Of a stretch of 64,000 nt of DNA, positions 11,053 to 64,000 are shown piece after piece. Origin of the DNA: Myroides marinus (GTDB lineage: Bacteria > Bacteroidota > Bacteroidia > Flavobacteriales > Flavobacteriaceae). The first letter of the stretch is position 1; each line of letters opens with the position of its first letter. Below the pieces are notes generated by a model, which was not told the origin of the DNA, did not search any database, and worked only from the letters and a program-made list of their open reading frames with translations. The translations under genes and the position numbers were made by a program. The DNA lies in contig NZ_FNYS01000001.1 of assembly GCF_900109075.1 (NCBI RefSeq), positions 124,001 to 188,000 on the forward strand, written 5' to 3'.

Positions 11053-11071
11053 AATTAACGGTTTTAAATGG

Positions 11072-12018: not shown

Positions 12019-12040
12019 ATTTTATTTAAGACAATACTTC

Positions 12041-12255: not shown

Positions 12256-12265
12256 ATTAGTGGTG

Positions 12266-40124: not shown

Positions 40125-41615
40125 TTACTTATATGCTTGATTCTGTTCTATTTTACTAACATTAATCTCTACTTGAGGTATTGGAAATGCGGCATATTTA
40201 TCTCCAAAAACAACCTTCCCATTAGTTAAAAGCCTATTTACTTTACTTTTAGGATTTACAACCTCTCCTCCCCAACGCATAATATCTTCATAAGCAAACC
40301 CTTCAAACATTAATTCTCTAATTCTTTCCTTTTTATAATCCTCAAATGTTAATACATCATAGATCTTAGGCAACGCTGAAGGTTGTACTCCATTCGCATC
40401 TTTTGGTGCCTGTAAAGTAACACGTTGAGATACAATATTATTCAAGTAATTCAAAGCTTGACCGTTATCACCATTTGAAGCTCCTTTTAAAGTAGCTTCA
40501 ACGTAATTAAACATAATTTCCTCGATACGCATTACACGAACATTAGAAGTACGAACTGTATATTTACCCAAATTACGAAGAGCACTATCTACACCTTTAC
40601 CAATAATATAAAGACGAACATCATCAACCTTTTTATCTCCTTCAAATTCTGGAAACAACGATACTATAGCATCATTCATACAAACAAGATCACCATAACC
40701 AGGTTTAACATTGTAAATATTAAACAAACTATTTACACCTAAATTATCTACACCTGACTGTGCTAATTCAAAAAGAGAATTACTCATAATTCCATCACCT
40801 TTATAAGCATCTACAAATGATCCCCTAGCGATTACTGTAGTTCCAGTTGATGTTATCGCTTTCAAAGAACTCTCAACAACCACATCTAGCATACTAGTAT
40901 CATATTTACTAAAAAACAGAGCAATCCTTGATTTAAAGCCATTAGCACTAGCTACTGTTAAACGGATATTCTCTCCACGTCCTATAACTGCCTCGGCCTC
41001 AGTCATCATTTTAATACCCTTCTCCAAATCAGCTAAAATTGATTTTTGATTTTCTCTTACAGTTGGACGAGATACTTTTTCATCAATATCTAAAAAAGAA
41101 GTTTTATATGGCACTCCTAAGGCATTTAACCCAAATCCTCCTACATACTGTTCTCCATAAAGTCTAACCAAATCATAATGAGCAATAGCTCTCAAAACAT
41201 ATGCTTGACCTTTGTAATACTTAACAGCACCACTCTCTTCAATATTTGCTTCTATAACACGATTAGTATTCGAAATCACTTTATAAATTTGTTCCCATGT
41301 ATCAGCTGAATAAGCGTGTGTTGGAAGAATTGTAAATCCTGAAATAGACCCAAACCGTCCACTTCCATCAGTTGAATACATATATGATGATCTACTTTCT
41401 GAAAATGCTATAATATCTCGACCATAATATGTTTCAGCTGCCATACGTGCATAAGATCCATTTAAACTTGACTTCAACTCTTTTTCAGAGCTAATCGGTG
41501 ATTTTTCATTATCTTTTGTATTAGAATCAACAGAATCTAATGAGCATGCTGTAAAACTTGTACTTGCTAATCCTACGAATCCAGCAAGTAAAAAGACTTT
41601 AACTATATTTTTCAT
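40125..41615 (-). CDS. SusD/RagB-like lipoprotein, pair 3
   Basis: 496-residue SusD/RagB protein. The signal peptide runs to FTAC with lipid Cys24, followed by SLDSVDSNTKDNEKSPIS. Typical motifs are present: GQAYVLRAIAHYDLVRLYGEQYVGGFGLNALGVPY, VRVMRIEEIMFNYVEATLKGASNGDNGQALNYLNNIVSQRV, and RIRELMFEGFAYEDIMRWG near the C-terminus. It follows its SusC after 5 nt, the tightest of the four pairs. Substrate unknown. Confidence 0.92.
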   Translation of the reverse strand: MKNIVKVFLLAGFVGLASTSFTACSLDSVDSNTKDNEKSPISSEKELKSSLNGSYARMAAETYYGRDIIAFSESRSSYMYSTDGSGRFGSISGFTILPTHAYSADTWEQIYKVISNTNRVIEANIEESGAVKYYKGQAYVLRAIAHYDLVRLYGEQYVGGFGLNALGVPYKTSFLDIDEKVSRPTVRENQKSILADLEKGIKMMTEAEAVIGRGENIRLTVASANGFKSRIALFFSKYDTSMLDVVVESSLKAITSTGTTVIARGSFVDAYKGDGIMSNSLFELAQSGVDNLGVNSLFNIYNVKPGYGDLVCMNDAIVSLFPEFEGDKKVDDVRLYIIGKGVDSALRNLGKYTVRTSNVRVMRIEEIMFNYVEATLKGASNGDNGQALNYLNNIVSQRVTLQAPKDANGVQPSALPKIYDVLTFEDYKKERIRELMFEGFAYEDIMRWGGEVVNPKSKVNRLLTNGKVVFGDKYAAFPIPQVEINVSKIEQNQAYK

Positions 41616-41620
41616 TCTAC

Positions 41621-44600: not shown

Positions 44601-44668
44601 TGTGCTGAGATATTCTGCGATAGAAGCATTATACCTGCAGCTACAATCCATTTGTAGTTTAATTTCAT
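41621..44668 (-). CDS. SusC-like TonB-dependent transporter, pair 3
   Basis: 1015-residue SusC/RagA transporter: signal peptide (to ISAQ), CarboxypepD_reg-like domain (LKGVVTEGGVPLPGVTVAIQGSNEGTQTNLDGSYSLNVKPGD), TonB box (GEVVVLAYGQSKARNEITGN), plug (LQMATTSGSPGATQNIRIRGRNSLSANNEPLFVVDGIPL, ARGGNGVIVITTKKG) and barrel ending FTLNVKF. Its N-terminal 100 residues are very like those of pairs 2 and 4, while the barrels differ. The upstream box TAGATTTG is at 44692-44699. Confidence 0.94.
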   Translation of the reverse strand: MKLNYKWIVAAGIMLLSQNISAQQKALKGVVTEGGVPLPGVTVAIQGSNEGTQTNLDGSYSLNVKPGDVLVFSFIGMKDVTYKVGDAMVYNPSLSVEGSQLGEVVVLAYGQSKARNEITGNVVTVQGDVIGKTPTVSVDQALQGRVAGLQMATTSGSPGATQNIRIRGRNSLSANNEPLFVVDGIPLTSGNISGNDVGTSLSSISGINSEDIETMTVLKDAAATAAYGARGGNGVIVITTKKGKRGEPSYSLKTSIGFQNFARKGPKFLTGEQKKELWLEANFNDYGAEDGFTMDNAWEWYIGPKGYGPNNILSKWVANGSQNYDWRNAVLNKDAITSTVSLGVNGGDEKGTYYANFAHEKFDGVVIGTDFRKVSGAFNMTRKLNDRLDVKIGANVSNILQNGINEAGAYFSNPNLSGMFISPWAPIYNEDGSYNLDIPANLHNPLHVTANNISRNDVIRVMSSNTLGYKVLDNLRFESTIGLDYLLANYKVYRNPDHGDGEAYGGNASETDRKRFNYVWQNSLNYKFYIGDDHKFDTRVLMEYQKNKANNLMGSGEVLPPGMISVGASAANYQASAGYTDWANLGFLGLLNYNYNDRYLVDLTLRREGSSRFSENKRWGTFFAVGGAWNISSEAFMEDVKFINLLRLRGSVGTTGNSEIASNTYAQLLSPGSYNQESAMISTQFGGLLGWEKQTKTDIGIEFGMFDNRLTGSFTYFISKSKDLLYARPLSRTSGFSSQWTNLGDLKNSGIEIELNYDVIRSEDFNWSIGGNLGTVKNEMVTMPIVDGKPLEVLGSFKGTAEGKILEEWRLKEYAGVDPQTGLAQWYMADGTKTSNYNAAETRYLNKSALPKLTGGITTHIDYKGFYLDALFSFAAGYSVYDYWSSYTNSINNRSLYNYNGTTELLERWQKPGDITDVPMVSTGGGATYTSPSTRWLYDGDHIRLKQITLGYNLRPKVAKSLGLDAVNLSVSARNPLTWVKDSRLKWDPEVDATGYIEMATPPLKSFVFTLNVKF

Positions 44669-44676
44669 AATAATTC

Positions 44677-44699
44677 AATTAGTAATTGAAACAAATCTA
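44677..44699 (-). promoter_or_regulatory. SusC promoter/leader signature, pair 3
   Basis: Minus strand TAGATTTG (44699-44692) followed by a variant ATTACTAATTG; the box ends 23 nt before the ATG at 44668. It is the most divergent of the four leaders. Confidence 0.55.
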
Positions 44700-44871
44700 A
44701 CAAAATATTTGAATTATATTATAATAAAATTAACAAAATAAAAAATCAAATAAAAACATTAAACATATTTTTATTTAAAAAAAATATAATAATAATCAAT
44801 TTTAACATAAAACAAATAAAATCAACAAAAAAAATATATAAAATCCAAAAATTAAGATAAAAATAAATCAC

Positions 44872-44907
44872 AAAAAAAGCCCTGGAGTAAACTCCAGGGC
44901 TTTTTTT
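44872..44907 (-). terminator. Terminator of the 266-residue lipoprotein gene
   Basis: 17-bp complementary arms (A7-GCCCTGGAGT / ACTCCAGGGC-T7) closing on a minimal loop, 20 nt past the stop at 44928. It is the most symmetric terminator of the window. Confidence 0.9.
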
Positions 44908-44927
44908 GTGATTTATTTAATTTGTAA

Positions 44928-45728
44928 CTAAGATGGTCTACGCATAATAGCATTTGTAAACTTTACTAACACCTTAGACGATTTACCTTCAACTTCCATT
45001 CTAATAGGATACCCAAATTCATCTAACTTATATGTGAATTTAAATACTTCTCCTGTTTTTTCATTAACCGCAGACTTAACCTCATTCTTAGAACTCAAAA
45101 CAAAACGTACAAGATCTCCTCCTGGTACATAATCAAACAATAAATTATACTCACTATGCACAAAAGGATTGTATCCCACTCCATACTCATACGCAAATAA
45201 CTTTCCTGATTCATCAGATACAGAACTCAAATTACCACGATTATTGTATTCATAAGTATAAGTCTTACCTAATTGAGTAGCTTTAATAGTATTTGCATTT
45301 AAGAACTCATACTTGATATTCTTACTAGCATCTTTCCCTTCTAAAGTAGTCAACTTACCACCTTGATAATTTGCAATCAATTTATCTAGTTCTAACTCTC
45401 CATCCTTTTTAATCACTATAGAATTTAGCTCTTCCTCTTTTAAATAACTAAACTCATAACTTAAAGGTGCTATACTTGGTATAGCAGTAATATCAATATC
45501 ACTATACTCTTTTATTACTTTAGGCTTTAATATACTATTATAACTAATAGAATATAATTTTTTCACTAAATACTCTTTCTCTAAATCTAGGATGACTTCC
45601 ATACTTTCTACTTTCACATAATCACCTTTACTAGGTTCCGGCTTATATGGATCATTCTCACTACTGTTACAAGAAACAAGAGTAACACCAATAAAAGCTA
45701 ACACTGAAAATATTTTAAACTGTTTCAT
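44928..45728 (-). CDS. Lipoprotein of unknown function within the SusCD cluster
   Basis: 266-residue lipoprotein: MKQFKIFSVLAFIGVTLVSC with lipid Cys20, then NSSENDPYKPEPSKGDYVK. The body is beta-rich with YD-like repeats (YTYEYNNRGNLSSVSDESGKLFAYEYG...), reminiscent of DUF4595-type lipoproteins. It lies between the terminator of pair 4 and pair 3 and has its own terminator. It may work with pair 4 as an accessory substrate-binding protein, but only position suggests that. A near-match TTATTTTG lies upstream in place of a clean -7 box. Confidence 0.75.
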   Translation of the reverse strand: MKQFKIFSVLAFIGVTLVSCNSSENDPYKPEPSKGDYVKVESMEVILDLEKEYLVKKLYSISYNSILKPKVIKEYSDIDITAIPSIAPLSYEFSYLKEEELNSIVIKKDGELELDKLIANYQGGKLTTLEGKDASKNIKYEFLNANTIKATQLGKTYTYEYNNRGNLSSVSDESGKLFAYEYGVGYNPFVHSEYNLLFDYVPGGDLVRFVLSSKNEVKSAVNEKTGEVFKFTYKLDEFGYPIRMEVEGKSSKVLVKFTNAIMRRPS

Positions 45729-45770
45729 TTATTTTAATTTTAATGGTTGCAAAATAATAAATATATGGAT

Positions 45771-45802
45771 AAAAAAAAGGTTGTTTTTACAACAACCTTT
45801 TT
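45771..45802 (-). terminator. Terminator of SusCD pair 4
   Basis: AAAAGGTTGTT / AACAACCTTTT, 5-nt loop, eight-base A-run on the plus strand (T-run on the minus strand), just past the SusD stop at 45808. The lipoprotein gene downstream is thus a separate unit. Confidence 0.85.
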
Positions 45803-45807
45803 CTTTA

Positions 45808-47322
45808 TTATTCAATTGGATTCTGTGGTGATAACAATGGATTTGCATCACGTTCAGCTTTTGGCAATTGTAAAGTAAATTTAGCACTTGGTGCTATAAT
45901 ATCTTTAAGTTGTCCTTTAGCTATGTGGTTAGTTCCTTCATAGATTCTAACTAATGAAGTACCCCAACGTTTCATATCTATTAAACCAAAACCTTCACCC
46001 CAAAGTTCAATTCTCTTTTGTATCTTAAACTCTTCGAATAAAGATTTAGACGCTAATCTCTTATTGATATCATATCCTTTATCACGTGTAGACATATAAT
46101 CAACTAAAACTTTTTTAGCTTCTCCTTCTTCACCTAACTTAATTGCAGCTTCCATATAATTAAATAAGATTTCTGTCTTTCTCATATAACAGTAATCTCC
46201 TAAGAACTTAGTTTTATCAATGAACTTCGTATTAACATATAATGGTAATGCCGCATCTTCTTTCCAGTTTGGGCTACTATAAATACGTTTTCCATCAGCA
46301 AACCACTCAGTTTTACGTTTATCAGTACCATTCATTTCATCATATAAACGTTTATCAATAGATTTAGTTGTGTTACCAACACGTCCATATCCTACGTTAA
46401 ATGAATCCATATGAGAAAAGTATGATGCATAGAAAGTAGTACTACTTCCGTCAATAGCAGTACCCCACATCCAATCAGCATTAGCTATTGAACTAAAGTT
46501 TCCACTATTAACAACATCAAAGCTAGCAGCACCGATATTCCCACCTAAAGCTAACTTAGCATAGTCTTTCGCTTTAGCAAATTCTTCAGTGTATAAATAA
46601 TATCTAGATAAGATACCTGCTACAACAGATTGATTAATATAGTTCGCATTTGGGCGACTATATCCTTCTAGAATAGTATAAGCTCTAACTAAGTCATTCT
46701 CTATAAATTTCTTAACTTCACTAGCAGGAACTCTATTTAGTTTATAAATAAATTCTCCTTTAGGTCCTTGCTCACCTTTTTCATCAATACTCTCAATACT
46801 AATTCCATCTCCATTATATTCATATAAACGGATTAGGTTTAAGTTAGCAAATGCTCTAAGTGCTAATGCACGACCATAAATAGCATTTGACTCATACTTA
46901 GAGTCTGTACGTAACACAGATTGAATAACCTGATTAGCACTGTGAGCTAACTTATTATAATAATTATAAACCGTAGCTGTATTATAGCTTTCTAAACGAT
47001 CTTGGTAAGTATAATGGTATGAAAACCAGTTAATATTAGCATAAGCAACATCATTACTCATAGCATCTACAATAATATCAACAGCTTTCTGTCCAAAATC
47101 CTCATGTGAACCTACTTCCGCAACTCCACTCTTAAACATAAGGTTTAAACCACCACTTTCAAGTCCATTATTCAAAACCATTGCAGATTCTGGGAACTTA
47201 GCTAACGCGGCCATTTGATTATCAGAGAAATTTGAATTCAAATCATTCTCTGTAAAATCTTTCGAACAAGAACCTAAAACAATAGATCCTAGAACGAAAG
47301 TAGAATATATAATTTTTTTCAT
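45808..47322 (-). CDS. SusD/RagB-like lipoprotein, pair 4
   Basis: 504-residue SusD/RagB protein. The signal peptide is MKKIIYSTFVLGSIVLGSC with lipid Cys19, followed by SKDFTENDLNSNFS. Typical helices (YNKLAHSANQVIQSVLRTDSKYESNAIYGRALALRAFANLNLIRLYEYNG) and C-terminal RKTEILFNYMEAAIKLGEEGEAKKVLVDYMSTRDKGYD, RIELWGEGFGLIDMKRWG are present. It starts 15 nt after its SusC. The nearest relative in the window is the SusD of pair 2. Substrate unknown. Confidence 0.92.
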   Translation of the reverse strand: MKKIIYSTFVLGSIVLGSCSKDFTENDLNSNFSDNQMAALAKFPESAMVLNNGLESGGLNLMFKSGVAEVGSHEDFGQKAVDIIVDAMSNDVAYANINWFSYHYTYQDRLESYNTATVYNYYNKLAHSANQVIQSVLRTDSKYESNAIYGRALALRAFANLNLIRLYEYNGDGISIESIDEKGEQGPKGEFIYKLNRVPASEVKKFIENDLVRAYTILEGYSRPNANYINQSVVAGILSRYYLYTEEFAKAKDYAKLALGGNIGAASFDVVNSGNFSSIANADWMWGTAIDGSSTTFYASYFSHMDSFNVGYGRVGNTTKSIDKRLYDEMNGTDKRKTEWFADGKRIYSSPNWKEDAALPLYVNTKFIDKTKFLGDYCYMRKTEILFNYMEAAIKLGEEGEAKKVLVDYMSTRDKGYDINKRLASKSLFEEFKIQKRIELWGEGFGLIDMKRWGTSLVRIYEGTNHIAKGQLKDIIAPSAKFTLQLPKAERDANPLLSPQNPIE

Positions 47323-47337
47323 AATAAACTTCTAGAA

Positions 47338-50300
47338 TTAAAATTGGATATTAGCTCCGAATGCAAATGTTGTATATAAAGGATATCCTGTTCCAGATAA
47401 ACCTGTTAAGTTTAATCTTGGATCATAACCTTGACGTTTTGACCATAAAGCTGCATTATCAACTGTTGCATATAAACGTAATCTGCTTAATCCTATACTA
47501 CTTACAACATCTTTATTAAATGTATATCCTACAGTAACGTTCTGTAAGCTTAAGTAATCAGATTTGATTAACGCCATAGTCGAACCACTATATGCATTAG
47601 ATTTATCATCAACATCTACACGAGGCATAGATCCTTGTTTAGTAACAGGATTCCATGTTTTATCAAAGTCATTATGTAAATTCTGACCTGCTTTTAAAGC
47701 AAAGAAGTTAGTATATTTTGTATCATAACCATAGCCACCGAATTGGTAAGCAAAGTTTGCAGATAAATCAAATCCTTTATACTCAACATTTAAACCAAAT
47801 CCTCCATATAATTTTGGAAGTGGAGATTTATCAATTCTTTGGTAAGAAGCATCATTCCAGTTTTCAGTAATAGTACGCTCACCAGTTTTTTCATTAATTT
47901 TGATGAACTGAGCGTTACCATTCTCTTGGTTAACACCAACATACTCTTTTAAGTAGTACTCATAAATTGATCCTCCTTCTTCACGAATAAATTGACCAGA
48001 GATGATACTCTTTTGTCCATTTGGAAGCTTAGTAATTTCGTTCTTATAATGAGTACCGTTAACATTTAAGCTAACTTTTAAGTCATTAGTTCTAACGATA
48101 TCACCTGTTAAACTAACCTCAAAACCAGTATTTTTCATATTACCAGCATTATAAGGCATTGTCTTGAATCCAGTTACTACTGGTTGAGGAACGAAGAATA
48201 ACATATCGTCCACTTTTCTAACAAAGTACTCAGCATCAACAGCGATTCTACCATTTAAGAATGATCCTTCAAAACCTACGTTAAAGTTTTTATTAACCTC
48301 CCAAGTAATATCTTTATTTCCTTTTGATTCTCCAACAATCTTAATTGGTGCATCTGGATCAAAACTAGGAGTAATAGAATACTGATTTTGGAAAGGATTC
48401 ATAACTAACAAGTTATCATTCCCTTGCTCACCGTAACTAGATTTTATTTTTAATTGATCAATCCATGTGATATTCTTCATGAAGTTTTCAGAAGAGATAA
48501 CCCAAGCTCCACCAACTCCAAAGAAAGTTCCCCATTTATTATCTGGGTGGAAGTAAGAAGAAGCATCACGTCTAATACTTGCATTAACGAAGTATTTATT
48601 ATTATACCCATAGTTAAGTTTAGCGAAATACCCTTCTAAAGAATAAGTTTCGTTTCCACCATTTGCACTATTAATAACAGCAGCATGATCAATATAAGGA
48701 CTATCTGGGAATAACATATTAGTACGTTGTACATATAAGTTATCTTTCTTTCTATCCATTGTCTCGTGACCTACTAAAAAATCAACTGAATGTTGTCCAA
48801 ACCATTTGTTATAGTTTAATAACTGTTGGTTAGTCACAGCATACATCTTATTATCTTGTTGATTAGCACGTCCATTAACACCAGTACCTGAACCATAAAC
48901 TGGATTCATAGTGTAACGTAATATATCACTATTCATATCAGCAGATATAACATATTTAAATGTTAATCCTTCTGCTAATCTCATATCTAAATATGCTGAA
49001 GTAAACAATTGATCACCAACTGTCTTTCTGTAGTCATAAGTACCAGAAGCATATGGGTTAGCATTTTGTCCAAAAGGTCTTAAGTTAGGGCTAACACTTC
49101 CTGATCCATCATCATACATTACACTTCCATTATCATCTCTCATGATATTTCCACTAGCATCATAAGCGTGTACTGGATAGATAGGTGCGATTCTAGATGA
49201 CCAGAAGAAAGGGTTAGCATAAGCAGTATTATTACCTCTGATATAATCTCCTCCCATTGGATTTTCTCTTTCAATGTGAGCATAGTTTACACTACCTCCT
49301 ACTTTGAAAGTTTTATTAATACGAGAATCAATACTTAAACGTCCAGTAATTTTTTGGTAATCATTATTAGCTACGATACCTTCATTCTTCTCATGCCCTA
49401 AAGACATTAAGAATGTAGTATTATCAGTACCACCTGAAATACTTAAATTATTTTGAGTAAATAACCCATCTCTAAATAAATAATCATCATATAATTCATG
49501 ATACATTAATTGTGCATTTGGGTTCATTTTTCCAGTTGCTGGATCAATTAATTGATTATCTGGTACATTATAAATATTATATCCTAAACCTGATCCTAAT
49601 TTATCAGAATACTCTCTAATTAACCCTTTAGAAGCTAATTGTGAAGCATCTGCAAAACTTTTACCATTAGACATATAACTATTTCTTAAAGCACCATAGT
49701 AAGACTCATAGTACTTAGAAGGACTAGTCATTTTATCGTAATCTTGGAATTTAGAACTAGCAATACCTACTTTAGTATCAAAAGAAACATTAGTTTTTCC
49801 TGATTGTCCACGTTTAGTAGTAATAATGATAACACCATTAGCCCCTCTATTTCCATATAAAGCTGCAGCAGACGCATCTTTTAAGAAAGAGATAGTCTCA
49901 ATATCAGCATTATTAATAGAATTTAATGTTCCATTAAATGGTACACCATCCACTACTAGCAACGGCTCAGAACTAGCAGAGATAGACCCTACCCCTCTAA
50001 AACGGATAGTTGCGTTATCACCAGGTGAACCACTGTTATTCATAATCTGAACCCCAGCAACCTTACCTACTAAACCTTGAGTTACATCAGACGTAGTTAC
50101 ATCTCTAATTTGTTTGCTATCAACTACTGCTACAGAACCAGCAATAGAAGTTTTACTTTGAGTACCATATGCAGTTACTACTACCTCTTCTAACATAGAA
50201 TCTTCTGATTCTAAAGAAACGTTATAGTTGTTTGCTGTAGACACTTTGTACTCTTTATCATTCATCCCGATGAATGAGTATACTAATACATCACCAGGTT

Positions 50301-50493
50301 TTACTTTTAAAGAATACTTTCCGTCTAAATCTGTTTGAGTTCCTTCTTGAGTTCCTTTGATTACCACAGTTACCCCTGGTAATGGAAGACCTCCCTCAGA
50401 TACTACTCCAGATAGAGTCTTTTGTTGTGCAAAAGAAGTTTGCACAGCTAGCCCTGCTGCCAGAGCTAAAGTCCATCTTAACTTAGAAATCAT
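47338..50493 (-). CDS. SusC-like TonB-dependent transporter, pair 4
   Basis: 1051-residue SusC/RagA transporter: signal peptide (to TSFAQ), CarboxypepD_reg-like domain (LSGVVSEGGLPLPGVTVVIKGTQEGTQTDLDGKYSLKVKPGD), TonB box (LEEVVVTAYGTQSKTSIAGS), plug (VQIMNNSGSPGDNATIRFRGVGSISASSEPLLVVDGVPFN, NRGANGVIIITTKRG) and barrel ending FGANIQF. It is the first SusC met by transcription entering the cluster. The upstream box is at 50518-50525. Confidence 0.94.
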   Translation of the reverse strand: MISKLRWTLALAAGLAVQTSFAQQKTLSGVVSEGGLPLPGVTVVIKGTQEGTQTDLDGKYSLKVKPGDVLVYSFIGMNDKEYKVSTANNYNVSLESEDSMLEEVVVTAYGTQSKTSIAGSVAVVDSKQIRDVTTSDVTQGLVGKVAGVQIMNNSGSPGDNATIRFRGVGSISASSEPLLVVDGVPFNGTLNSINNADIETISFLKDASAAALYGNRGANGVIIITTKRGQSGKTNVSFDTKVGIASSKFQDYDKMTSPSKYYESYYGALRNSYMSNGKSFADASQLASKGLIREYSDKLGSGLGYNIYNVPDNQLIDPATGKMNPNAQLMYHELYDDYLFRDGLFTQNNLSISGGTDNTTFLMSLGHEKNEGIVANNDYQKITGRLSIDSRINKTFKVGGSVNYAHIERENPMGGDYIRGNNTAYANPFFWSSRIAPIYPVHAYDASGNIMRDDNGSVMYDDGSGSVSPNLRPFGQNANPYASGTYDYRKTVGDQLFTSAYLDMRLAEGLTFKYVISADMNSDILRYTMNPVYGSGTGVNGRANQQDNKMYAVTNQQLLNYNKWFGQHSVDFLVGHETMDRKKDNLYVQRTNMLFPDSPYIDHAAVINSANGGNETYSLEGYFAKLNYGYNNKYFVNASIRRDASSYFHPDNKWGTFFGVGGAWVISSENFMKNITWIDQLKIKSSYGEQGNDNLLVMNPFQNQYSITPSFDPDAPIKIVGESKGNKDITWEVNKNFNVGFEGSFLNGRIAVDAEYFVRKVDDMLFFVPQPVVTGFKTMPYNAGNMKNTGFEVSLTGDIVRTNDLKVSLNVNGTHYKNEITKLPNGQKSIISGQFIREEGGSIYEYYLKEYVGVNQENGNAQFIKINEKTGERTITENWNDASYQRIDKSPLPKLYGGFGLNVEYKGFDLSANFAYQFGGYGYDTKYTNFFALKAGQNLHNDFDKTWNPVTKQGSMPRVDVDDKSNAYSGSTMALIKSDYLSLQNVTVGYTFNKDVVSSIGLSRLRLYATVDNAALWSKRQGYDPRLNLTGLSGTGYPLYTTFAFGANIQF

Positions 50494-55519: not shown

Positions 55520-57508
55520 ATGACTTTTCAAGAACATATTTTACAAGGAATACCTACTGTATTACCTCCTAAAAAAGAGTATGATCTTTCTATCAATCAC
55601 GCTCCTAAGAGAAAAGAAATCTTATCAGAGGATGAGAAAGTATTAGCTCTTAAGAATGCTTTGCGCTATTTCCCTAGCGAAAATCACAGTACCCTTATTC
55701 CTGAGTTCAAAGAAGAACTTGAAAAGTATGGAAGAATATATATGTATCGCTTACGCCCAGATTACAAGATGTATGCTAGACCAATCGATGAATATCCAGG
55801 TCAATGTCTACAGGCTAAGGCGATCATGCTAATGATTCAAAACAACTTAGACTATGCAGTGGCACAACATCCTCATGAACTAATCACTTATGGAGGTAAT
55901 GGAGCTGTATTCTCTAACTGGGCTCAGTACTTACTAACGATGAAATATCTAGGTGAAATGACTGACGAACAGACTTTAGTAATGTATTCTGGTCATCCGA
56001 TGGGATTATTCCCATCACATAAAAACGCTCCTAGAGTAGTTGTTACTAATGGTATGATGATTCCTAATTATTCTAAGCCAGATGATTGGGAAAAGTTTAA
56101 TGCACTAGGAGTGACACAGTATGGTCAGATGACCGCTGGTAGCTATATGTATATCGGACCACAAGGTATCGTACATGGTACTACTATCACGGTATTAAAT
56201 GGTGGTAGAAAAATCTCTAAAAATGGAGAAGGTCTAGCTGGTAAATTATTCGTTACTTCTGGATTAGGAGGAATGAGTGGTGCTCAGCCTAAGGCGGGTA
56301 ATATAGCGGGATGTATTACTGTATGTGCTGAAGTAAACCCTAAAGCAGTATACACTAGACACTCACAAGGTTGGGTAGATGAAGTAGTAACTGACATCAA
56401 TGCTTTAGTAGTTCGTGTTAAAAAGGCACAAGAGAATAAAGAAATAGTTTCTATCGCTTACCAAGGTAACGTAGTAGATATATGGGAAGAATTTGATAAA
56501 CAGAACTTATATATTGATTTAGGATCTGATCAGACTTCTCTACACAATCCATGGGCTGGTGGTTACTATCCTGTAGGAGTATCTTTTGAAGAGGCAAATG
56601 ATTTGATGGCTAATAACCCAATTAAATTTAAGGAATTAGTACAAGAGTCTCTTAGAAGACAGGCTACTGCTATAAATAAGCATACAGCTAAGGGGACGTA
56701 CTTCTTTGATTATGGGAATGCTTTCTTATTAGAAGCTTCTAGAGCTGGAGCTGATGTGATGGCTGCTAATAATATAGACTTTAGATATCCTAGTTATGTA
56801 CAGGATATTATGGGACCAATGTGTTTTGACTATGGATTTGGTCCTTTTAGATGGGTATGTACTTCGGGTAATCCTGAGGACTTAGCGAAAACAGATATGA
56901 TAGCATGTGAAGTATTAGAAGAGATGATTAAGAACTCTCCTATAGAAATACAACAACAGATGGCTGATAATATCCGTTGGATAAAAGGTGCTCAAGAGAA
57001 CAAACTTGTAGTAGGTTCTCAGGCTCGTATCTTATACGCAGATGCTGAAGGACGTATTAATATAGCTAGAGCATTTAATGATGCTATTAAAGCGGGTAAG
57101 ATAGGTCCTGTAGTGCTAGGTAGAGATCACCATGATGTATCTGGTACAGATTCTCCATACAGAGAAACATCTAATATCTATGATGGCTCTAAGTTTACAG
57201 CTGATATGGCTATCCACAATGTTATCGGCGATAGCTTTAGAGGAGCTACATGGGTATCTATCCACAATGGTGGTGGTGTAGGATGGGGTGAAGTAATCAA
57301 TGGTGGGTTTGGCATGTTACTTGATGGTACTATCGAAGCTCAAAAAAGATTAGAGTCTATGTTATTCTGGGATGTAAACAATGGTATCGCTAGAAGAAGC
57401 TGGGCTCGTAATGATGAAGCTATCTTCGCTATTAAAAGAGCTATGGAGGTAGAACCATTGTTAAAGGTAACTATACCTAATCTAGTAGACGAAAACTTAT
57501 TAAAATAA
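55520..57508 (+). CDS. hutU: Urocanate hydratase
   Basis: 662-residue urocanase converting urocanate to imidazolone propionate in histidine breakdown. Recognisable segments are ELITYGGNGAVFSNWAQYLLTMKYL, YSGHPMGLFPSHKNAPRVVVTNGMMIPNYS, VTSGLGGMSGAQPKAGNIAGC (NAD-binding), CFDYGFGPFRWVCTSGNPEDL and the C-terminal SIHNGGGVGWGEVINGGFGM. It is about 100 residues longer than the classical 555-residue enzyme, a long form seen in Bacteroidota. No other hut gene is adjacent. A DUF4136 lipoprotein follows after 10 nt. Confidence 0.95.
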   Translation: MTFQEHILQGIPTVLPPKKEYDLSINHAPKRKEILSEDEKVLALKNALRYFPSENHSTLIPEFKEELEKYGRIYMYRLRPDYKMYARPIDEYPGQCLQAKAIMLMIQNNLDYAVAQHPHELITYGGNGAVFSNWAQYLLTMKYLGEMTDEQTLVMYSGHPMGLFPSHKNAPRVVVTNGMMIPNYSKPDDWEKFNALGVTQYGQMTAGSYMYIGPQGIVHGTTITVLNGGRKISKNGEGLAGKLFVTSGLGGMSGAQPKAGNIAGCITVCAEVNPKAVYTRHSQGWVDEVVTDINALVVRVKKAQENKEIVSIAYQGNVVDIWEEFDKQNLYIDLGSDQTSLHNPWAGGYYPVGVSFEEANDLMANNPIKFKELVQESLRRQATAINKHTAKGTYFFDYGNAFLLEASRAGADVMAANNIDFRYPSYVQDIMGPMCFDYGFGPFRWVCTSGNPEDLAKTDMIACEVLEEMIKNSPIEIQQQMADNIRWIKGAQENKLVVGSQARILYADAEGRINIARAFNDAIKAGKIGPVVLGRDHHDVSGTDSPYRETSNIYDGSKFTADMAIHNVIGDSFRGATWVSIHNGGGVGWGEVINGGFGMLLDGTIEAQKRLESMLFWDVNNGIARRSWARNDEAIFAIKRAMEVEPLLKVTIPNLVDENLLK

Positions 57509-57518
57509 TTAATAAACA

Positions 57519-58085
57519 ATGAAACTCATGAAAGCTTTTAAATTATTACCACTAGCTCTACTGATGTTATTCGTAACTTCATGTAGTAGCGTAAAAGTTA
57601 CAGCTGACTATGACAAAGCTGTAGACTTCCAACAGTATAAAACATATGCTTTCTTTAAAGAAGGTATTGATCAAGCTAAGGTGAATGACTTAGACAAAAA
57701 AAGAATTCTTAATGCTATAGATGCTAATCTTGCTGCTAAAGGTCTTGTGAAAACAGATAAAAATCCTGATTTTGTTATTAATATCTTCACCAAAGCTCAA
57801 GAGCAAGTAAATGTTACTAATAACAGTCATTTTTACTCTCCTTATGGATACTATGGATGGGGATGGGGACCATACTGGGGACCTAATAATACAACTGTAA
57901 CTACGTCTATCGAAGGAACATTGTATATCGACATCCTAGACACGAATAAGAAAGCGTTAATCTGGCAGGGTATAGGAACTGGTTATTTAGATAAAGCTCC
58001 TAATCCTGAAAAGAAAGAACAACGTATCAATGATTTTATCGAAAAGATACTGACTAAGTTTCCTCCTGTTATAGAGAAGAAATAA
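57519..58085 (+). CDS. DUF4136 lipoprotein
   Basis: 188-residue lipoprotein: LLPLALLMLFVTSC with the lipid cysteine at about residue 22, then SSVKVTADYDKAVDFQQYKTYAFF, the hallmark DUF4136 opening. A Gly/Trp/Tyr-rich loop (YSPYGYYGWGWGPYWGPNN) and the C-terminal LYIDILDTNKKALIWQGIGTGYLDK complete the domain. It is 10 nt downstream of hutU and so probably shares its transcript, although no functional link is known. Confidence 0.9.
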   Translation: MKLMKAFKLLPLALLMLFVTSCSSVKVTADYDKAVDFQQYKTYAFFKEGIDQAKVNDLDKKRILNAIDANLAAKGLVKTDKNPDFVINIFTKAQEQVNVTNNSHFYSPYGYYGWGWGPYWGPNNTTVTTSIEGTLYIDILDTNKKALIWQGIGTGYLDKAPNPEKKEQRINDFIEKILTKFPPVIEKK

Positions 58086-58092
58086 AAGAATA

Positions 58093-58124
58093 AAAGAAAG
58101 GCTCTCCAATGGAGAGCCTTTTTC
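58093..58124. terminator. Bidirectional terminator, hutU unit and lipoprotein array
   Basis: AAGGCTCTCC-AAT-GGAGAGCCTT with T-runs on both strands, 12 nt past the DUF4136 stop and 23 nt past the stop of the last array gene. Confidence 0.88.
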
Positions 58125-58142
58125 GTTTAAGAGCTTATCAAG

Positions 58143-59267
58143 TTATCTATTCTTAATTTCTTTTTTTAGCTCCTCAAAAGAGAAACCTGTGTTTCGTCTT
58201 TCTATATCCAGACTTTTACCAGTATCTCCTGGATTTACATTGACAATACCTAAGCCATTGTACACTCCTTTATATTTAACTTCTAATGCATAATCAACAG
58301 ATATAAACTCATACTCTACTTCACCTTTCCCTTTTGATAACGAAGTCAAAGGTGATAACCATTTTGCATACGCCTTCTCTATATCCATAGAAAGTATTTC
58401 TGCTTCTATCTCTCTGTCTATCACTCCTAAACCTCCAAGTATCACAACCTTATTAGCAGGAACTTCATATGGCAATATAACTTTATCTGTATCATTTGGA
58501 ACAATAACCTTCATAATATACATAGCAAAAGTTCCTTCTACATTATCAGCAAACAATTTATAAACATAATATGCTTCTTTACCTTCCTTGTACAATATTG
58601 GTTTCTTGGTATTCTTATCAACATCAATAGTCAATTCAACATTCTTTATATCATACTTCACCCCATTAATAGTAAAAGTCTGATCTGTCACACTTGGTTT
58701 TAGTAAAACTTTCACTTCTAAAATATCACTGTTTGAATATCCTTCTTTAGTAGCCACAAATCTATATGTCCCAAACTTATCCATAACTAGAGTAGATGAT
58801 TCAAGAGTTCCTCCTTCTATGTATTGTATCTTAGCTCCTTCTACCTCTTTACCATCTGCCATCACACTAAACTTGACAGACTCTCCAAGATAAACAGTAT
58901 TCTTATCTACAGTTAACTTTAATTTATTGGCAATAACCTCGCCTCCATCTGAAACAAAAATAGAAACTGGGGCACTTGCTTTATATCCTATTTTCTTAGC
59001 GATTACATTATAAACTCCTTTCTTATCAAACTTAAAATCTTTAGAAATTTTCACTCCATTTAGATAAAAACTTGCATCCTCTACTTTATTATTGTCCTTA
59101 TCTATTGCTGTAAAGGCTACCAATTCACCAATAGCTACTTTGGTCTTATCTGGCTTAATAAACAACTCTTTCTTTCCAGAATCATCTATAGTGTCATCTT
59201 CTTTACTACACCCTACAGCTGCTACTATCAGTAACATTACTGTAAAATACTTTAATATATTTTTCAT
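58143..59267 (-). CDS. Ig-like surface lipoprotein, array copy A
   Basis: 374 residues. The signal peptide MKNILKYFTVMLLIVAAVGC has lipid Cys20 followed by SKEDDTIDD, an acidic patch like the Bacteroidota surface-export signal. There are two Ig-like (Big-type) units, about 30-108 (KTKVAIGELVAFTAIDKDNNKVEDASFYLNGVKISKDFKFDKKGVYNVIAKKIGY) and 113-190 (DKNTVYLGESVKFSVMADGKEVEGAKIQY). A conserved C-terminal domain follows (VKYDIKNVELTI...YYVYKLFADNVEGTFAMYIMKVIVP...). It is the last and most divergent of four tandem paralogues, 20 nt after copy B. No family name recognised. Confidence 0.8.
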   Translation of the reverse strand: MKNILKYFTVMLLIVAAVGCSKEDDTIDDSGKKELFIKPDKTKVAIGELVAFTAIDKDNNKVEDASFYLNGVKISKDFKFDKKGVYNVIAKKIGYKASAPVSIFVSDGGEVIANKLKLTVDKNTVYLGESVKFSVMADGKEVEGAKIQYIEGGTLESSTLVMDKFGTYRFVATKEGYSNSDILEVKVLLKPSVTDQTFTINGVKYDIKNVELTIDVDKNTKKPILYKEGKEAYYVYKLFADNVEGTFAMYIMKVIVPNDTDKVILPYEVPANKVVILGGLGVIDREIEAEILSMDIEKAYAKWLSPLTSLSKGKGEVEYEFISVDYALEVKYKGVYNGLGIVNVNPGDTGKSLDIERRNTGFSFEELKKEIKNR

Positions 59268-59287
59268 GTACTTTAATTGATTAATTA

Positions 59288-60385
59288 TTAAAAACTAATA
59301 GAGAAAGCTTGCTTTACACTTTTAGTCTCTTTTTTAATAGGAACAAAACTCAGCCCTTTGAACTCACCCTTATAAACTACTTGAAGTTTTTTATCTTTTG
59401 TAATTATGTTATAGTTAATTTCTCCTTTACTGGTTTTATCAGGATTCGTTGGGTCAAAAGGTGCTATAGGTTTTATCCAATCAATATTTACTTCCGCTAT
59501 ATCCTGGGCATTAAATGATACAGTAGTATTATTACCTACTACACCAACTCCTCCAATAGAAAATACGTCTGTTGGTTTTGCCGAGCTTGGATAAATAAAC
59601 TTAGTTTCATTATCTGCTACATAAACTCCTATCAAATAAGATGTTAATGCCTGTCTAACTCTATTAATTGAAACTAACTCATACACTTGAAATTTCTTTC
59701 CTGTAGCTTTATCAGTATAATGGTAAGGTTTAATATTCGCATCATCTTCAGCTTGTACATGTGCTGCAAACTGTACTTCTCCTATACCATACTTCTCATC
59801 AACTATTGAGAAGAATTGATTCTCATCAATAGGTTTATCTTTTACTTTTATGGTAACTACATTGCTATTTAAATACTCACCTTTAAAAGCATAAAGTTTA
59901 AACGTTCCTTCAGTAAGTGATGTCCAAGTATCACCTAACAATATCCCTCTTCCCATTACCTCTATATAATAATCAGTAACTGGTTCACCATTGGCAAGAA
60001 CTTGGAAAGTTACATTATCACCTGCTACAATTTCTGCTTTACTTGCTACAAGTTCTAATCTCTTATTTAATACTCTTCCTACCAATATCGTTTTTGGAGA
60101 ACTCATATTATAACCATTCTTTCTAGCAACGACATTATACGTACCACTCTTTACAAACTTATATGGGTTACTAACTTTCACGTTATTTATAAAGTAATCA
60201 GCTCCTTCAATTATCTTGTTATTAGAATCTACAGCACTAAATTTAACTACCTCGCCTTCCTCTACAGTCATCTTATCCACTTTGACTATGAGTTCTTTTA
60301 ATTCTGTACTTGCATCATCACTACTACAGCTTACAGCTACAATAGTTAATAGTAATACAGAGAAATATTTTAAAACCTGTTTCAT
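59288..60385 (-). CDS. Ig-like surface lipoprotein, array copy B
   Basis: 365 residues. MKQVLKYFSVLLLTIVAVSC with lipid Cys20, then SSDDASTE. The two Ig-like units are ELIVKVDKMTVEEGEVVKFSAVDSNNKIIEGADYFINNVKVSNPYKFVKSGTYNVVARKNGY and LVASKAEIVAGDNVTFQVLANGEPVTDYYIEVMGRGILLGDTWTSLTEGTFKLYAFKGEY. The C-terminal domain contains the array motif YHYTDKATGKKFQVYELV and ends with a beta-rich segment INYNIITKDKKLQVVYKGEFKGLSF. It is closest to copies C and D. Confidence 0.8.
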   Translation of the reverse strand: MKQVLKYFSVLLLTIVAVSCSSDDASTELKELIVKVDKMTVEEGEVVKFSAVDSNNKIIEGADYFINNVKVSNPYKFVKSGTYNVVARKNGYNMSSPKTILVGRVLNKRLELVASKAEIVAGDNVTFQVLANGEPVTDYYIEVMGRGILLGDTWTSLTEGTFKLYAFKGEYLNSNVVTIKVKDKPIDENQFFSIVDEKYGIGEVQFAAHVQAEDDANIKPYHYTDKATGKKFQVYELVSINRVRQALTSYLIGVYVADNETKFIYPSSAKPTDVFSIGGVGVVGNNTTVSFNAQDIAEVNIDWIKPIAPFDPTNPDKTSKGEINYNIITKDKKLQVVYKGEFKGLSFVPIKKETKSVKQAFSISF

Positions 60386-60477
60386 ATTTAATTCTTTAGT
60401 AATTGTTATTAATTATTTACCTAAACATTACTTTTATAAATTTCACTTTTAGGTATTTCTTTGTCCTATTAGACAGT

Positions 60478-61533
60478 TTATTTAGATTGCGGTACAATCT
60501 CATAATCATCTCTAAATCTAAGTCCGTTGTATTCTCCTTGATAGTTAATCTCAACTTTTTTATCTTTTGTAGTTATTTGATAACTGATTGTTCCAGGTTT
60601 CACATAAGAATGTTCAAATGGACTTATCCATTTAAAATTAACTGTCTCTAAATCCTTTAATGCATAAGCTCTTGATTTAGTTTGTGTAAAAAAATATACA
60701 AAAGACACTTTCGTATATTTTATATTCTCTTGGTTAGGTACAACAAAATTAGTTTCTGTAGATGCTACATAGACTCTAAGTTCGACTATGAATTCACTTT
60801 GTAGAAGAGGAGCACTACTATTCTTAGCGTACAAACGATACTTTTGATAAGTCCTATTAGTTACTTCGTCAGTATAGATATATGGAACTCTTTTTCCACT
60901 ATTAATATCATATGCTGTATATACTTCTAGATAAACATCATCTATTGAATATTCTTTTTCGTCAATAATAAAACGCTGATCTTCTTTAGGTTTCACATTA
61001 ATACTAATAATTTCACTATCATAAAAGCCTTCCTTTACAGCATAAAATTGATGAGTACCTATTTTATTAGCATACCACGTATTACCACTAAACAATCCAT
61101 TCCCAACATATTTTATAGAGAAATCAGATATAACACTTCCTTCTGCAGTTACATTAAAAAGCACATCCTCACCTATTGCAACTTCAGTACCACTAGCGAT
61201 AAGAGTTAGTTTCTTAATAACCCTATTAACAAGAATATCAATTGCTTTACTATTCTTATAGCCATTCTTTTTAGCAGTTACATTAAAAGTCCCTACTGTA
61301 TTGAACTTATAAGGATTACTAACCTTAATATTGTTTACATAATAATCTACCTCATTAATCACCTTATCATTAACATCTCTAGCACTAAAGAATATAGACT
61401 CTCCTTCATTTATAGTAGACTTATCTACTTTGATAATTAGTTCTTTTAATTCAGCATTAGCATCATCATTACTACAGCCTACACCAAAAAACATTAATAG
61501 TAATACAACAAAATATTTTAAAACCTGTTTCAT
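60478..61533 (-). CDS. Ig-like surface lipoprotein, array copy C
   Basis: 351 residues. MKQVLKYFVVLLLMFFGVGC with lipid Cys20, then SNDDANAE. The first 24 residues are nearly identical to copy B. Ig-like units: ELIIKVDKSTINEGESIFFSARDVNDKVINEVDYYVNNIKVSNPYKFNTVGTFNVTAKKNGY and LIASGTEVAIGEDVLFNVTAEGSVISDFSIKYVGNGLFSGNTWYANKIGTHQFYAVKEGF. The C-terminal domain has YIYTDEVTNRTYQKYRLY and ISYQITTKDKKVEINYQGEYNGLRF. The gap to copy B is 92 nt, the widest in the array. Confidence 0.8.
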   Translation of the reverse strand: MKQVLKYFVVLLLMFFGVGCSNDDANAELKELIIKVDKSTINEGESIFFSARDVNDKVINEVDYYVNNIKVSNPYKFNTVGTFNVTAKKNGYKNSKAIDILVNRVIKKLTLIASGTEVAIGEDVLFNVTAEGSVISDFSIKYVGNGLFSGNTWYANKIGTHQFYAVKEGFYDSEIISINVKPKEDQRFIIDEKEYSIDDVYLEVYTAYDINSGKRVPYIYTDEVTNRTYQKYRLYAKNSSAPLLQSEFIVELRVYVASTETNFVVPNQENIKYTKVSFVYFFTQTKSRAYALKDLETVNFKWISPFEHSYVKPGTISYQITTKDKKVEINYQGEYNGLRFRDDYEIVPQSK

Positions 61534-61578
61534 GTCTTTACATTTTATTTGATTAAAAAAGATTATTTATTACTCTAA

Positions 61579-62700
61579 TTACTTAAGACGAAGCTTACTA
61601 CTATCTTTTATTTTAGAATTAAACACTCTACCTACTTTTGTTGTCTTTTCTTTTACTTCACTACCATATATTCCTTCATATGTACCTTCATATTTAAGAT
61701 CTGCACTTTTATCCTTTAGAGATAAATAATAATTAATAGGCCCCTGTTCTTCTTTATTAGAATCATATACTCCTACCCATTCGATCGACATCTTATCTAT
61801 AGCATTAGCATCAGCTTTTAATTCTTCTTTGCCCTGTACCATACCGATAACACTTATCGGAAACACATTAGCTTTCTCTGCTTGTTCTGGAAATACAAAT
61901 CCTGTCTCATTAGCAGAAACATAAACTCCCATTAGATAAATGATACCACTTCTATCATCAGTATTCATAACCAACAATTCATACACTTGGTATTTCTTAC
62001 CTGTTTTTTCATCCGTATACATATAAGGCCTAGCCTCATCATTTTCATCTTTTAACTTATGGATCTGCACACTAAGTTGTGTAGCATCAATACCATATTT
62101 TTTATCTTTCAATACGAAGTATTGGTTTTCCTTTATCTCTTTAGGGCTAACCATAATCGTAATGACTTCACTATTAAAAAATCCTTCTTTAAAAGCATAG
62201 AAAGTATAAGTACCCACTTCGCTTGGATTCCAACTATTCCCACTAAATAGACCATATCCTTTATTCTCTATATAGTAATTTGAAACAGCTCTACCATCAG
62301 CAGTGACAGTAAACATAACTTTATCACCTATTCTCACATCATAAGAATCAGCCTCTAGAGTTAGTTTCTCAGCTATAGTCCCACCTACTAAAATAGCTAA
62401 AGCCGCACTATTCTTATATCCTGCTTTTTTAGCAATGATATTATATACTCCTCTTTTTTCGAACTTATATTCCTGGGTAGCCTTTACATTATCGACATAA
62501 AAGTCAACACCAGAGACTTCCTTTCTATCCCCATCATAAGCTTTAAAGGTTACAAGACCACCTTCATCTACAGCAATATCACTTGCTTCAACGAACAAGT
62601 CTTTTAACACAAAGTCACTAGGGGTATTGTCATCCTTACTACAACCGACTACACTAATAGTCAAGAGAGCTAAGGAGAAATAAAACAACAGTTTTTTCAT
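61579..62700 (-). CDS. Ig-like surface lipoprotein, array copy D (first gene)
   Basis: 373 residues. MKKLLFYFSLALLTISVVGC with lipid Cys20, then SKDDNTPSD. Ig-like units: DLFVEASDIAVDEGGLVTFKAYDGDRKEVSGVDFYVDNVKATQEYKFEKRGVYNIIAKKAGY and LEADSYDVRIGDKVMFTVTADGRAVSNYYIENKGYGLFSGNSWNPSEVGTYTFYAFKEGF. The C-terminal domain carries YMYTDEKTGKKYQVYELL and INYYLSLKDKSADLKYEGTYEGIYG plus a basic tail. It is the promoter-proximal gene of the array; no clean TAnnTTTG box was found in the 282 nt upstream. Confidence 0.8.
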   Translation of the reverse strand: MKKLLFYFSLALLTISVVGCSKDDNTPSDFVLKDLFVEASDIAVDEGGLVTFKAYDGDRKEVSGVDFYVDNVKATQEYKFEKRGVYNIIAKKAGYKNSAALAILVGGTIAEKLTLEADSYDVRIGDKVMFTVTADGRAVSNYYIENKGYGLFSGNSWNPSEVGTYTFYAFKEGFFNSEVITIMVSPKEIKENQYFVLKDKKYGIDATQLSVQIHKLKDENDEARPYMYTDEKTGKKYQVYELLVMNTDDRSGIIYLMGVYVSANETGFVFPEQAEKANVFPISVIGMVQGKEELKADANAIDKMSIEWVGVYDSNKEEQGPINYYLSLKDKSADLKYEGTYEGIYGSEVKEKTTKVGRVFNSKIKDSSKLRLK

Positions 62701-62982
62701 AATTTATTATTTAGGTTAATTAGTTGGTACTAAATAACAATAACACAAAAAACCTATCAAATTAATTACTATACCTATTCAAACATATTTATCTATTAAC
62801 AAAACAATTCAAACACTGAAGATTACATTGATTCAAAAAACACAAAAACGAAGTCTCAACCTCTTCTAAAAAAGCTCCTATCAAATCATTAAAAATTGGT
62901 TAAAACCTCATTACATCACATCTTTATCTAAAACAGTCATTGTTTTTATTATATTTACCACAAACAATAACAAATTTCATTT

Positions 62983-64000
62983 ATGAAAACACAAGAATAT
63001 GAAAGTAACGACTTGATCGAAAGATTACCACAGCATTTAAAACAATTTATCAAACCACAGAGTTATCAAGATTATACACCAATTAATCAAGCCGTGTGGA
63101 GATATGTTATGCGTAAAAATGTTGATTATCTATCTAAAGTTGCTCACGAATCATATCTTGACGGTCTAGCTAAAACAGGTATTTCTATAGAAAGTATCCC
63201 TAGTATGTATGGGATGAATAGAATATTAAAAGAAATAGGTTGGGCTGCTGTAGCAGTAGATGGCTTTATACCACCGAATGCCTTTATGGAGTTTCAGGCT
63301 TATAAAGTTCTTGTTATTGCATCAGATATTAGACAATTAGAAAATATAGAATACACACCTGCACCAGACATCATACACGAAGGTGCTGGACACGCTCCTA
63401 TTATCGCAAACCCAGAGTATGCTGAATACCTTAGACGCTTCGGCGAGATAGGTTGTAAAGCAATCTCTTCTGGTAGAGATTATGAGATATACGAAGCTAT
63501 TCGTCTATTATCTATTCTTAAAGAAGCAGAAGGTGTAGCGGAAGAAGAAATAGCTAAAGCAGAGGCACAAGTAGAACACCTACAAAGTATAGTAGAAGAA
63601 CCTTCTGAAATGGCACTTATCCGTAACCTTCACTGGTGGACTGTAGAGTATGGACTAATAGGTACTACTGACAACCCTAAGATATACGGAGCTGGTTTAC
63701 TATCTTCTATCGGGGAGAGTGCATGGTGTATGACTAACAATGTAAAGAAACTTCCTTATAGTATAGAAGCTGCATACCAAGGTTTTGACATTACTAAACC
63801 TCAACCTCAACTATATGTAACTCCTGACTTTGCTTACCTAAGTGAAGTATTAGAAGAGTTTGCGAATAAGATGGCCTTGAGAAAAGGAGGTTTAATGGGA
63901 GTTAGCAAACTTATAGACTCTAAAGCCTTAGGTACTATAGAGCTTAATACAGGACTTCAAATATCAGGTGTATTCACACGTGTTATCGAACATGAAGGTA
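62983..64000 (+). CDS. Aromatic amino acid (phenylalanine) hydroxylase, 5' part (partial)
   Basis: 339 residues visible, open to the window edge. Pterin-dependent monooxygenase, probably phenylalanine to tyrosine. Iron ligands H132 and H137 are in PDIIHEGAGHAP, and E222 in TVEYGLIG is the third ligand. The H137-E222 spacing (85) is about twice that of classical enzymes (about 40), because of an inserted charged helix (LLSILKEAEGVAEEEIAKAEAQVEHLQSIV). This is the long flavobacterial form. It is transcribed divergently from the lipoprotein array. Substrate could also be tryptophan. Confidence 0.88.
   Translation, partial: MKTQEYESNDLIERLPQHLKQFIKPQSYQDYTPINQAVWRYVMRKNVDYLSKVAHESYLDGLAKTGISIESIPSMYGMNRILKEIGWAAVAVDGFIPPNAFMEFQAYKVLVIASDIRQLENIEYTPAPDIIHEGAGHAPIIANPEYAEYLRRFGEIGCKAISSGRDYEIYEAIRLLSILKEAEGVAEEEIAKAEAQVEHLQSIVEEPSEMALIRNLHWWTVEYGLIGTTDNPKIYGAGLLSSIGESAWCMTNNVKKLPYSIEAAYQGFDITKPQPQLYVTPDFAYLSEVLEEFANKMALRKGGLMGVSKLIDSKALGTIELNTGLQISGVFTRVIEHEG

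Follow-up and report, generated by a model that had tools for sequence, protein, structure and literature searches.

A 64,000-nucleotide stretch of the Myroides marinus genome (contig NZ_FNYS01000001.1, positions 124,001 to 188,000; hereafter, the window) contains a tandem array of four open reading frames (ORFs), genes A to D, which encode lipoproteins of 351 to 374 amino acids and lie in one orientation on the minus strand between window positions 58143 and 62700. At the level of sequence, these proteins have a common architecture and homologs at a shared locus in other species, close relatives carry different C-terminal domains (C-domains) with a break inside the gene, and the leader is constant within the Myroides odoratus group. 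We propose that they are lipid-anchored, probably surface-exported proteins in which an immunoglobulin (Ig)-like stalk carries an exchangeable C-terminal binding head that is swapped by recombination between species, and we give this proposal an even chance of being correct. What is new here is a constant leader joined to a variable surface body that differs from one species to the next at a fixed locus in Bacteroidota; the anatomy itself is known. The titles and abstract openings of literature on Myroides or Bacteroidota surface or mosaic lipoproteins, lipoprotein export signals (LES), and phage resistance describe no such locus.

The locus was compared in 20 genomes, one per species as in all our comparisons, each chosen for a family gene beside a phhA-type (aromatic amino acid hydroxylase) gene. 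Since every genome was picked in this way, the set says nothing on how frequently the locus occurs without the gene. Eighteen genomes also show hutU; the two sides of the M. albus locus lie on two contigs, and the stretches from M. pelagicus and M. indicus show the phhA side only. Names of neighboring genes (hutU, aromatic amino acid hydroxylase, alaS, hemL, and DUF4136) come from NCBIfam and Pfam; a DcyD neighbor shows a family-level resemblance below cutoff, and one further neighbor is presumably a GSCFA protein. Sixteen genomes have both sides on one stretch; there, DUF4136 and phhA are separated by family ORFs only, plus, in two of the genomes, one ORF of 74 to 75 amino acids. Among ORFs of at least 70 amino acids, none of recombinase, transporter, or toxin size occurs between hutU and phhA where both sides are seen. 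The 20 loci contain 37 family ORFs, and in 33 of these the C-domain was sufficiently long for scoring. Copy number varies between species, in support of the initial annotation of the array: the locus contains one family ORF in 13 of the 20 genomes and two to six in the others, and several single-ORF genomes hold further family genes elsewhere. In the M. pelagicus array (L076:63-9113), short or broken family copies stand beside intact ones, and an assembly error is possible there.

Grouping the 33 C-domains with phmmer gave 10 groups at 1e-10, 8 at 1e-6, and 6 at 1e-4. The window's genome and M. albus have no C-group in common at 1e-10, with hutU, phhA, and alaS proteins that are 94 to 97% identical. 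To 12 single-copy genomes we applied a phhA identity cutoff of at least 88%, which yielded 17 close pairs with actual phhA identities of 92 to 98%. The C-domain type was different in 13 of these pairs and the same in 4, and residues 1 to 20 were identical in all 17. Within the 13 different-type pairs, phhA was 92 to 98% and DUF4136 94 to 99% identical, and the C-domains, aligned globally over their full length with the third Ig unit of WP1 removed, were 20 to 28% identical over 161 to 178 residues, versus 76 to 98% in the 4 same-type pairs. Nucleotide identity fell to ∼35 to 55% inside the gene. The fall came near position +300 for UBA1682/HSC61S13 and around +600 for G058/sp1354, and it was gradual, from +420 to +600, for WP1/NP2; these profiles describe the profiled pairs only, and their identity figures carry no unrelated-sequence baseline. 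The best tree of the Ig region joins G058 and sp1354 (support, 84/94), a grouping that the C-domain data reject (approximately unbiased test, p-AU = 2.9e-41).

The age of the modules was gauged by counting changed synonymous codons among those whose amino acid is unchanged between the two genomes, with six flanking genes for comparison and Fisher's test. In all four same-type pairs the C-domain had fewer changes than the flanks: 12/157 versus 556/2732 (0.20; p = 2.9e-5), 37/138 versus 950/2649 (0.36; p = 0.035), 35/146 versus 984/2647 (0.37; p = 0.0011), and 4/170 versus 237/2749 (0.09; p = 0.0022), the first three pairs being drawn from three genomes and hence not independent. Such a deficit of silent change is as expected after recent transfer, and unusual codon constraint could also produce it. 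Synonymous change in the Ig domains equaled that of the flanks in three same-type pairs and exceeded it in G516/M. phaeus. Of 18 signal-peptide codons, none or one was changed in each of the six pairs. The C-domains of G076/odoratus change fast at the protein level: the ratio of nonsynonymous to synonymous substitution rates (dN/dS) of the C-domain was 0.65 in this pair (flanks, 0.02 to 0.11) and 0.21 to 0.27 in the three other same-type pairs.

The differences between close relatives could have arisen without exchange between species, had an ancestral long array carried many C-domain types of which each lineage kept few. An uncultured genome (Pcu381) with three C-groups in tandem, the three groups of M. 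albus at 1e-10, and the short or broken copies of M. pelagicus all fit such old paralogs. This explanation sits poorly with the identity breaks inside genes, with the likeness of G058 and sp1354 in the Ig region and their unlikeness in the C-domain, and with the low synonymous change of same-type C-domains; furthermore, remnants of lost copies were found in only 2 of 14 gaps searched, both in M. pelagicus. We consider it unlikely.

Several observations weigh against head exchange between species. The four C-domains of the window and the three of G455 form one C-group, and G516 and M. phaeus retain one C-type. The Ig data do not firmly reject the alternative grouping of G058 and sp1354 (p-AU = 0.097). 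On the species tree, 8 type changes are enough to account for the 7 types carried by 17 single-type genomes (minimum, 6), a count that comes without a shuffled control, from types assigned by hand from the phmmer groups and from a tree that was built by a rapid method and left four forks open. In the two different-type pairs tested, the synonymous change of the C-domain did not differ from that of the flanks (p = 0.23 and 0.16), and the low synonymous change of the signal peptide was significant at 0.05 in only three of the six pairs. By domain, dN/dS of Ig2 exceeded that of the C-domain in two of four same-type pairs. In same-type pairs the Ig region was also less conserved than the C-domain (identities of 75/85, 57/76, 57/80, and 94/98% for Ig/C), so one cannot simply call the C-domain the part that evolves fastest, and the case rests on its replacement as a whole. 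Finally, surface exposure is predicted from a short motif, and structure and family searches with the C-domain yielded neither a confident fold relative nor a ligand.

The 5′ end of the gene behaves in the opposite way to its body. In six M. odoratus-group genomes, invariant columns made up 96% of the 80 bp upstream, 95% of the first 60 nucleotides, and 16% of codons 21 to 60. Among 10 locus genes, this upstream invariance was the highest (next, 75%), the value for the first 60 nucleotides tied with that of alaS (95%), and the value for codons 21 to 60 was the lowest (next lowest, 41%), making the drop after the leader the largest. Likewise, among 32 orthologue pairs of G058 and G076, the family gene ranked first, narrowly, in summed identity of the upstream region and first 60 nucleotides (1.99 versus 1.96), and its fall after the leader was the largest (0.53 versus at most 0.14). 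These comparisons were confined to the 10 locus genes in the six genomes and the 32 G058/G076 pairs. A listing whose rows were chosen for the common signal peptide gives no measure of the conservation of that peptide. When 17 genomes were searched with the leader, there were at least 17 matches at E < 1e-9; among the matches listed, 16 lie at annotated family genes and one lies at a contig edge without annotation, and weaker matches were short.

The nearest anatomy that we found is that of the Vpma/Vsp lipoproteins of the mycoplasmas Mycoplasma agalactiae and M. bovis, which, as described in part of PMC2268961, join a conserved 5′ untranslated region and signal peptide to variable bodies. The likeness extends to a conserved leader and signal, a variable body, lipid anchoring, and a multigene locus. 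In the present family, a leader of this kind is found in the six M. odoratus-group genomes (95 to 96% versus 16%), whereas the signal peptides within the window are only 50 to 70% identical. The differences are that the variation observed here is from species to species at one locus, where most genomes have one family ORF; that a search of the locus for the switching machinery that defines the Vpma/Vsp system, silent copies and a recombinase, found neither, the window having four co-oriented copies; and that the array bodies consist of an Ig stalk and a C-domain. A within-genome antigenic switching system, of which the conserved leader and variable bodies are reminiscent, is in our view very improbable: besides the single-ORF loci (several of whose genomes do have more family genes elsewhere), the window's genome contains no further full copies, the interval from hutU to phhA, where both sides are seen, lacks an ORF of recombinase size, and inverted repeats of at least 16 nucleotides in the array are 70 to 94% complementary and at most 30 nucleotides long. 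Array repeats in general are short or at most 81% alike. The earlier suggestion that the array might be an antigenic-variation reservoir is therefore not borne out.

Within the window, gene D aligns end to end with the other three products at 32 to 40% identity and Cys20 is invariant in all four, confirming a paralogous array. In its own genome, gene D matches only the four array genes at E ≤ 1e-49; the next two matches, on another contig, cover the first 64 to 66 residues (E, ∼0.02). Two short tandem lipoproteins elsewhere in this genome (L054:8697-10190) share only an N-terminal region with the array and, at E ≤ 0.001, match nothing in Pfam. The motif Y-x-Y-T-D-x-x-T-x-[KR]-x-[FY]-Q-x-Y, noted from the outset, is correct in B, C, and D and degenerate in A. 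Pairwise identities within the array were 50 to 70% for residues 1 to 20, 38 to 62% for Ig1, 30 to 52% for Ig2, and 24 to 38% for the C-domain. Thus, signal peptides first described as almost unchanged are not so within the window, and the strong divergence ascribed to the C-domains holds, in that they are the most divergent module, by a modest margin. The contrast between leader and body is much sharper across species than inside the window. Nearest neighbors differ by module (Ig1, B and C at 62%; Ig2, D and C at 52%; C-domain, D and B at 38%), and the 5′ ends of B and C have in common a 135-nucleotide stretch with 81% identity. Together these patterns give hints of past exchange within the array, which uneven rates could also explain.

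Each array protein consists of a signal peptide, a lipobox cysteine, an export patch, two Ig-like domains, and an all-β C-domain of ∼170 residues. The LES form C-x-K-(D/E)2 after the lipid cysteine, as given in part of PMC5080379, occurs exactly in A (CSKEDD) and D (CSKDDN), and a looser form of a polar residue followed by two aspartates occurs in B (CSSDDA) and C (CSNDDA). Surface export of the array proteins, as the initial annotation supposed, is thus likely, as predicted from an LES-type patch. They resemble the Bacteroidota LES lipoproteins, as far as those are described in that source, in having this motif (S-D-D in B and N-D-D in C) and differ in that no Sus-type gene stands directly beside the array and in that export here is predicted from the motif. 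At E ≤ 10, no SusD match appears in the family listing of the four proteins, and the direct neighbors are DUF4136 and phhA. At least two SusC/SusD-type pairs (TonB plug and SusD domains) lie at window positions 40125 to 50493, ∼8 to 18 kb from the array.

Structural models were used to examine the folds. The gene D model, built from four sequences, is good after a disordered signal region (mean predicted local distance difference test [pLDDT], 76.7); four other models scored 55 to 65. Foldseek with full-length gene D returned 134 matches in the Protein Data Bank (PDB) at E ≤ 0.001, and Ig-like or multi-β-domain proteins made up most of the 50 listed, in agreement with the two Ig-like units read from the sequence. 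Because Ig folds dominated this search, the C-domain was modeled alone. The isolated gene D model, from 12 sequences, is all-β without any helix of at least four residues (pLDDT, 88; predicted template modeling score [pTM], 0.83), and it had no Foldseek PDB match at E ≤ 0.001 and no BFVD match at E ≤ 0.001. The original failure to recognize a named family was upheld: none of Pfam, NCBIfam, PADLOC, and PHROGs gave an above-cutoff or convincing match to the four proteins, and Pfam Ig-type models matched below cutoff only. Twelve C-domains gave scattered Pfam matches (best E, 0.013), with no lipocalin among families reached at E ≤ 1, and a PDB sequence search with a C-domain profile reached a best E of 0.38. 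At gathering thresholds, Rfam found nothing in window positions 57000 to 63500 or in loci L043, L104, and L107.

In a structure search with the C-domain, the top four rows were heme-binding domains of Corynebacterium HtaA/ChtA (Z, 3.7 to 4.5), the best with a root mean square deviation of 3.1 over 89 residues, and lipocalin- and streptavidin-like rows were among the others at Z of 2 to 3; a Z below 8 may reflect a common arrangement. With these rows, and with family members at other loci that bear Lipocalin_4 C-domains, the proteins could be nutrient-capture lipoproteins whose heads differ as their ligands (heme, a siderophore, or another small ligand) differ. The low Z values and empty Foldseek result, together with the absence of any helix of at least four residues from the C-domain model and the lack of a transporter-sized ORF between hutU and phhA where both sides are seen, make this quite improbable. 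In part of PMC12494546, the heme-ligating tyrosine of ChtA and HtaA CR1 is placed in helix α-1. The likeness to HtaA/ChtA CR domains is a weak one of overall β arrangement, and identity as an HtaA/ChtA-type heme domain was dropped because the heme-tyrosine helix is missing from the predicted model.

Tandem arrays with modular variable C-domains are also typical of immunity gene banks, and the array could accordingly encode immunity lipoproteins against competitors' toxins. With no toxin-sized ORF between hutU and phhA where both sides are seen (elsewhere in the genomes none was sought), and with a single PADLOC match for the four proteins at E ≤ 1, JAB at 0.039, we see very little chance of this.

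Under the proposed head exchange, the export patch would direct the array lipoproteins to the cell surface, and the two Ig-like domains would act as a stalk holding the C-domain off the membrane. The C-terminal β-domain is probably the binding head: its replacement as a unit makes it the likeliest point of contact with something outside the cell, and we infer that it binds something. Recombination between species, with duplication and decay within arrays, would supply new heads, which may be under selection for difference (by phages, predators, host immunity, or partner choice), and selection on expression, or else repeated exchange, may keep the leader constant. A more specific version holds that the leader/signal block on one side and conserved flanks on the other anchor the recombination, so that whole C-domains move between species without a dedicated recombinase at the locus, are presented on the shared Ig stalk, and generate surface-recognition diversity; we find this possible but doubtful. 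Roles as adhesins, receptors, or inhibitors are guesses. If correct, the proposal would provide a concrete and easily sampled case of modular head exchange among Bacteroidota surface proteins, would make its driver testable (phage, predators, host immunity, or kin recognition), and would explain why neighboring species differ at a surface-protein locus amid conserved metabolic genes.

In the window, the intergenic gaps of the array are 45, 92, and 20 bp, a terminator-like stem follows gene A (Table 1), and it is plausible from this layout that the four genes form one transcript. An octamer upstream of gene D, TATGTTTG at 62787-62780 (-), was read by eye as a match to TAnnTTTG, which we take to be the Bacteroidota -7 consensus. 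An 82-amino-acid antisense ORF is also present at the locus. Coordinates are collected in Table 1.

Table 1. Features of the lipoprotein array and its surroundings, in window coordinates.
Feature	Position	Strand	Remark
Gene D	61579..62700	-	First gene of array, 373 aa
Gene C	60478..61533	-	351 aa
Gene B	59288..60385	-	365 aa
Gene A	58143..59267	-	Last gene of array, 374 aa; motif degenerate
Gene D signal peptide, lipobox Cys20, and export patch C-S-K-D-D-N	62629..62700	-	Sequence reading, no signal-peptide predictor
Gene D Ig-like domain 1 (∼residues 30-108)	62377..62613	-	Model and Foldseek; boundaries set by hand
Gene D Ig-like domain 2 (∼residues 109-186)	62143..62376	-	Model and Foldseek; boundaries set by hand
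Gene D variable C-domain, all-β	61582..62142	-	Model of residues 188-358: pLDDT 88, pTM 0.83
Gene C C-domain	60481..60987	-	
Gene B C-domain	59291..59836	-	
Gene A C-domain	58146..58700	-	
Upstream region, gene D to divergent phhA-type gene	62701..62982	-	Read by eye
Terminator-like stem-loop 3′ of gene A	58097..58121	-	2 sites in region versus 1.5 expected in shuffles; weak alone
DUF4136 lipoprotein, conserved neighbor	57519..58085	+	NCBIfam/Pfam
hutU (urocanate hydratase), conserved neighbor	55520..57508	+	NCBIfam/Pfam
Aromatic amino acid hydroxylase (phhA-type) start, conserved neighbor	62983..63999	+	Runs past window end

Beyond the locus, a genus search of 101 genomes found matches in 23 at E ≤ 0.001, including the window's own, and a wider profile matched 66 of 398 genomes at E ≤ 1e-6, many weakly or in the N-terminal part only. 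A single-sequence search at family level (299 genomes) gave 10 at E ≤ 0.001. Besides the window's own genome, these were nine genomes from other genera with weak matches, eight of which fell within residues 1 to 186. A scan with a profile centered on the common signal peptide retrieved 18 loci. Thirteen carry the family (nine Myroides-titled, two Flavobacterium sp., and two uncultured Flavobacteriaceae), and the remaining five, from Bacteroidales or Bacteroidia, match only in the first 30 to 48 residues. Two Bacteroidales genes (L108:2267-3058 and L109:7001-7795) begin with nearly the same signal-like start as the Myroides lipoproteins; they resemble genes for MotA/TolQ-type proteins.

Related genomes hold Ig-stalk lipoproteins at other loci that share the signal and Ig module by profile and differ from the window genes in that their C-domains match Pfam families (Lipocalin_4 and Omp28). 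The same N-terminal module with recognized C-domains fits a general display stalk. One such member has an Omp28 C-domain (PF11551; L047:7875-9032). Another family locus, in what we take to be a gltX-type/SPFH-type neighborhood (L045:8007-8753, L049:8879-9844, and L053:8467-9213), has a Lipocalin_4 C-domain in the two cases tested (L045 and L049), and its number of Ig units varies between genomes. In G058 (L044:7999-12279), two other Ig-stalk lipoprotein genes (7999-9381 and 9888-10481) adjoin a tyrosine recombinase gene (10891-12279, Phage_integrase).

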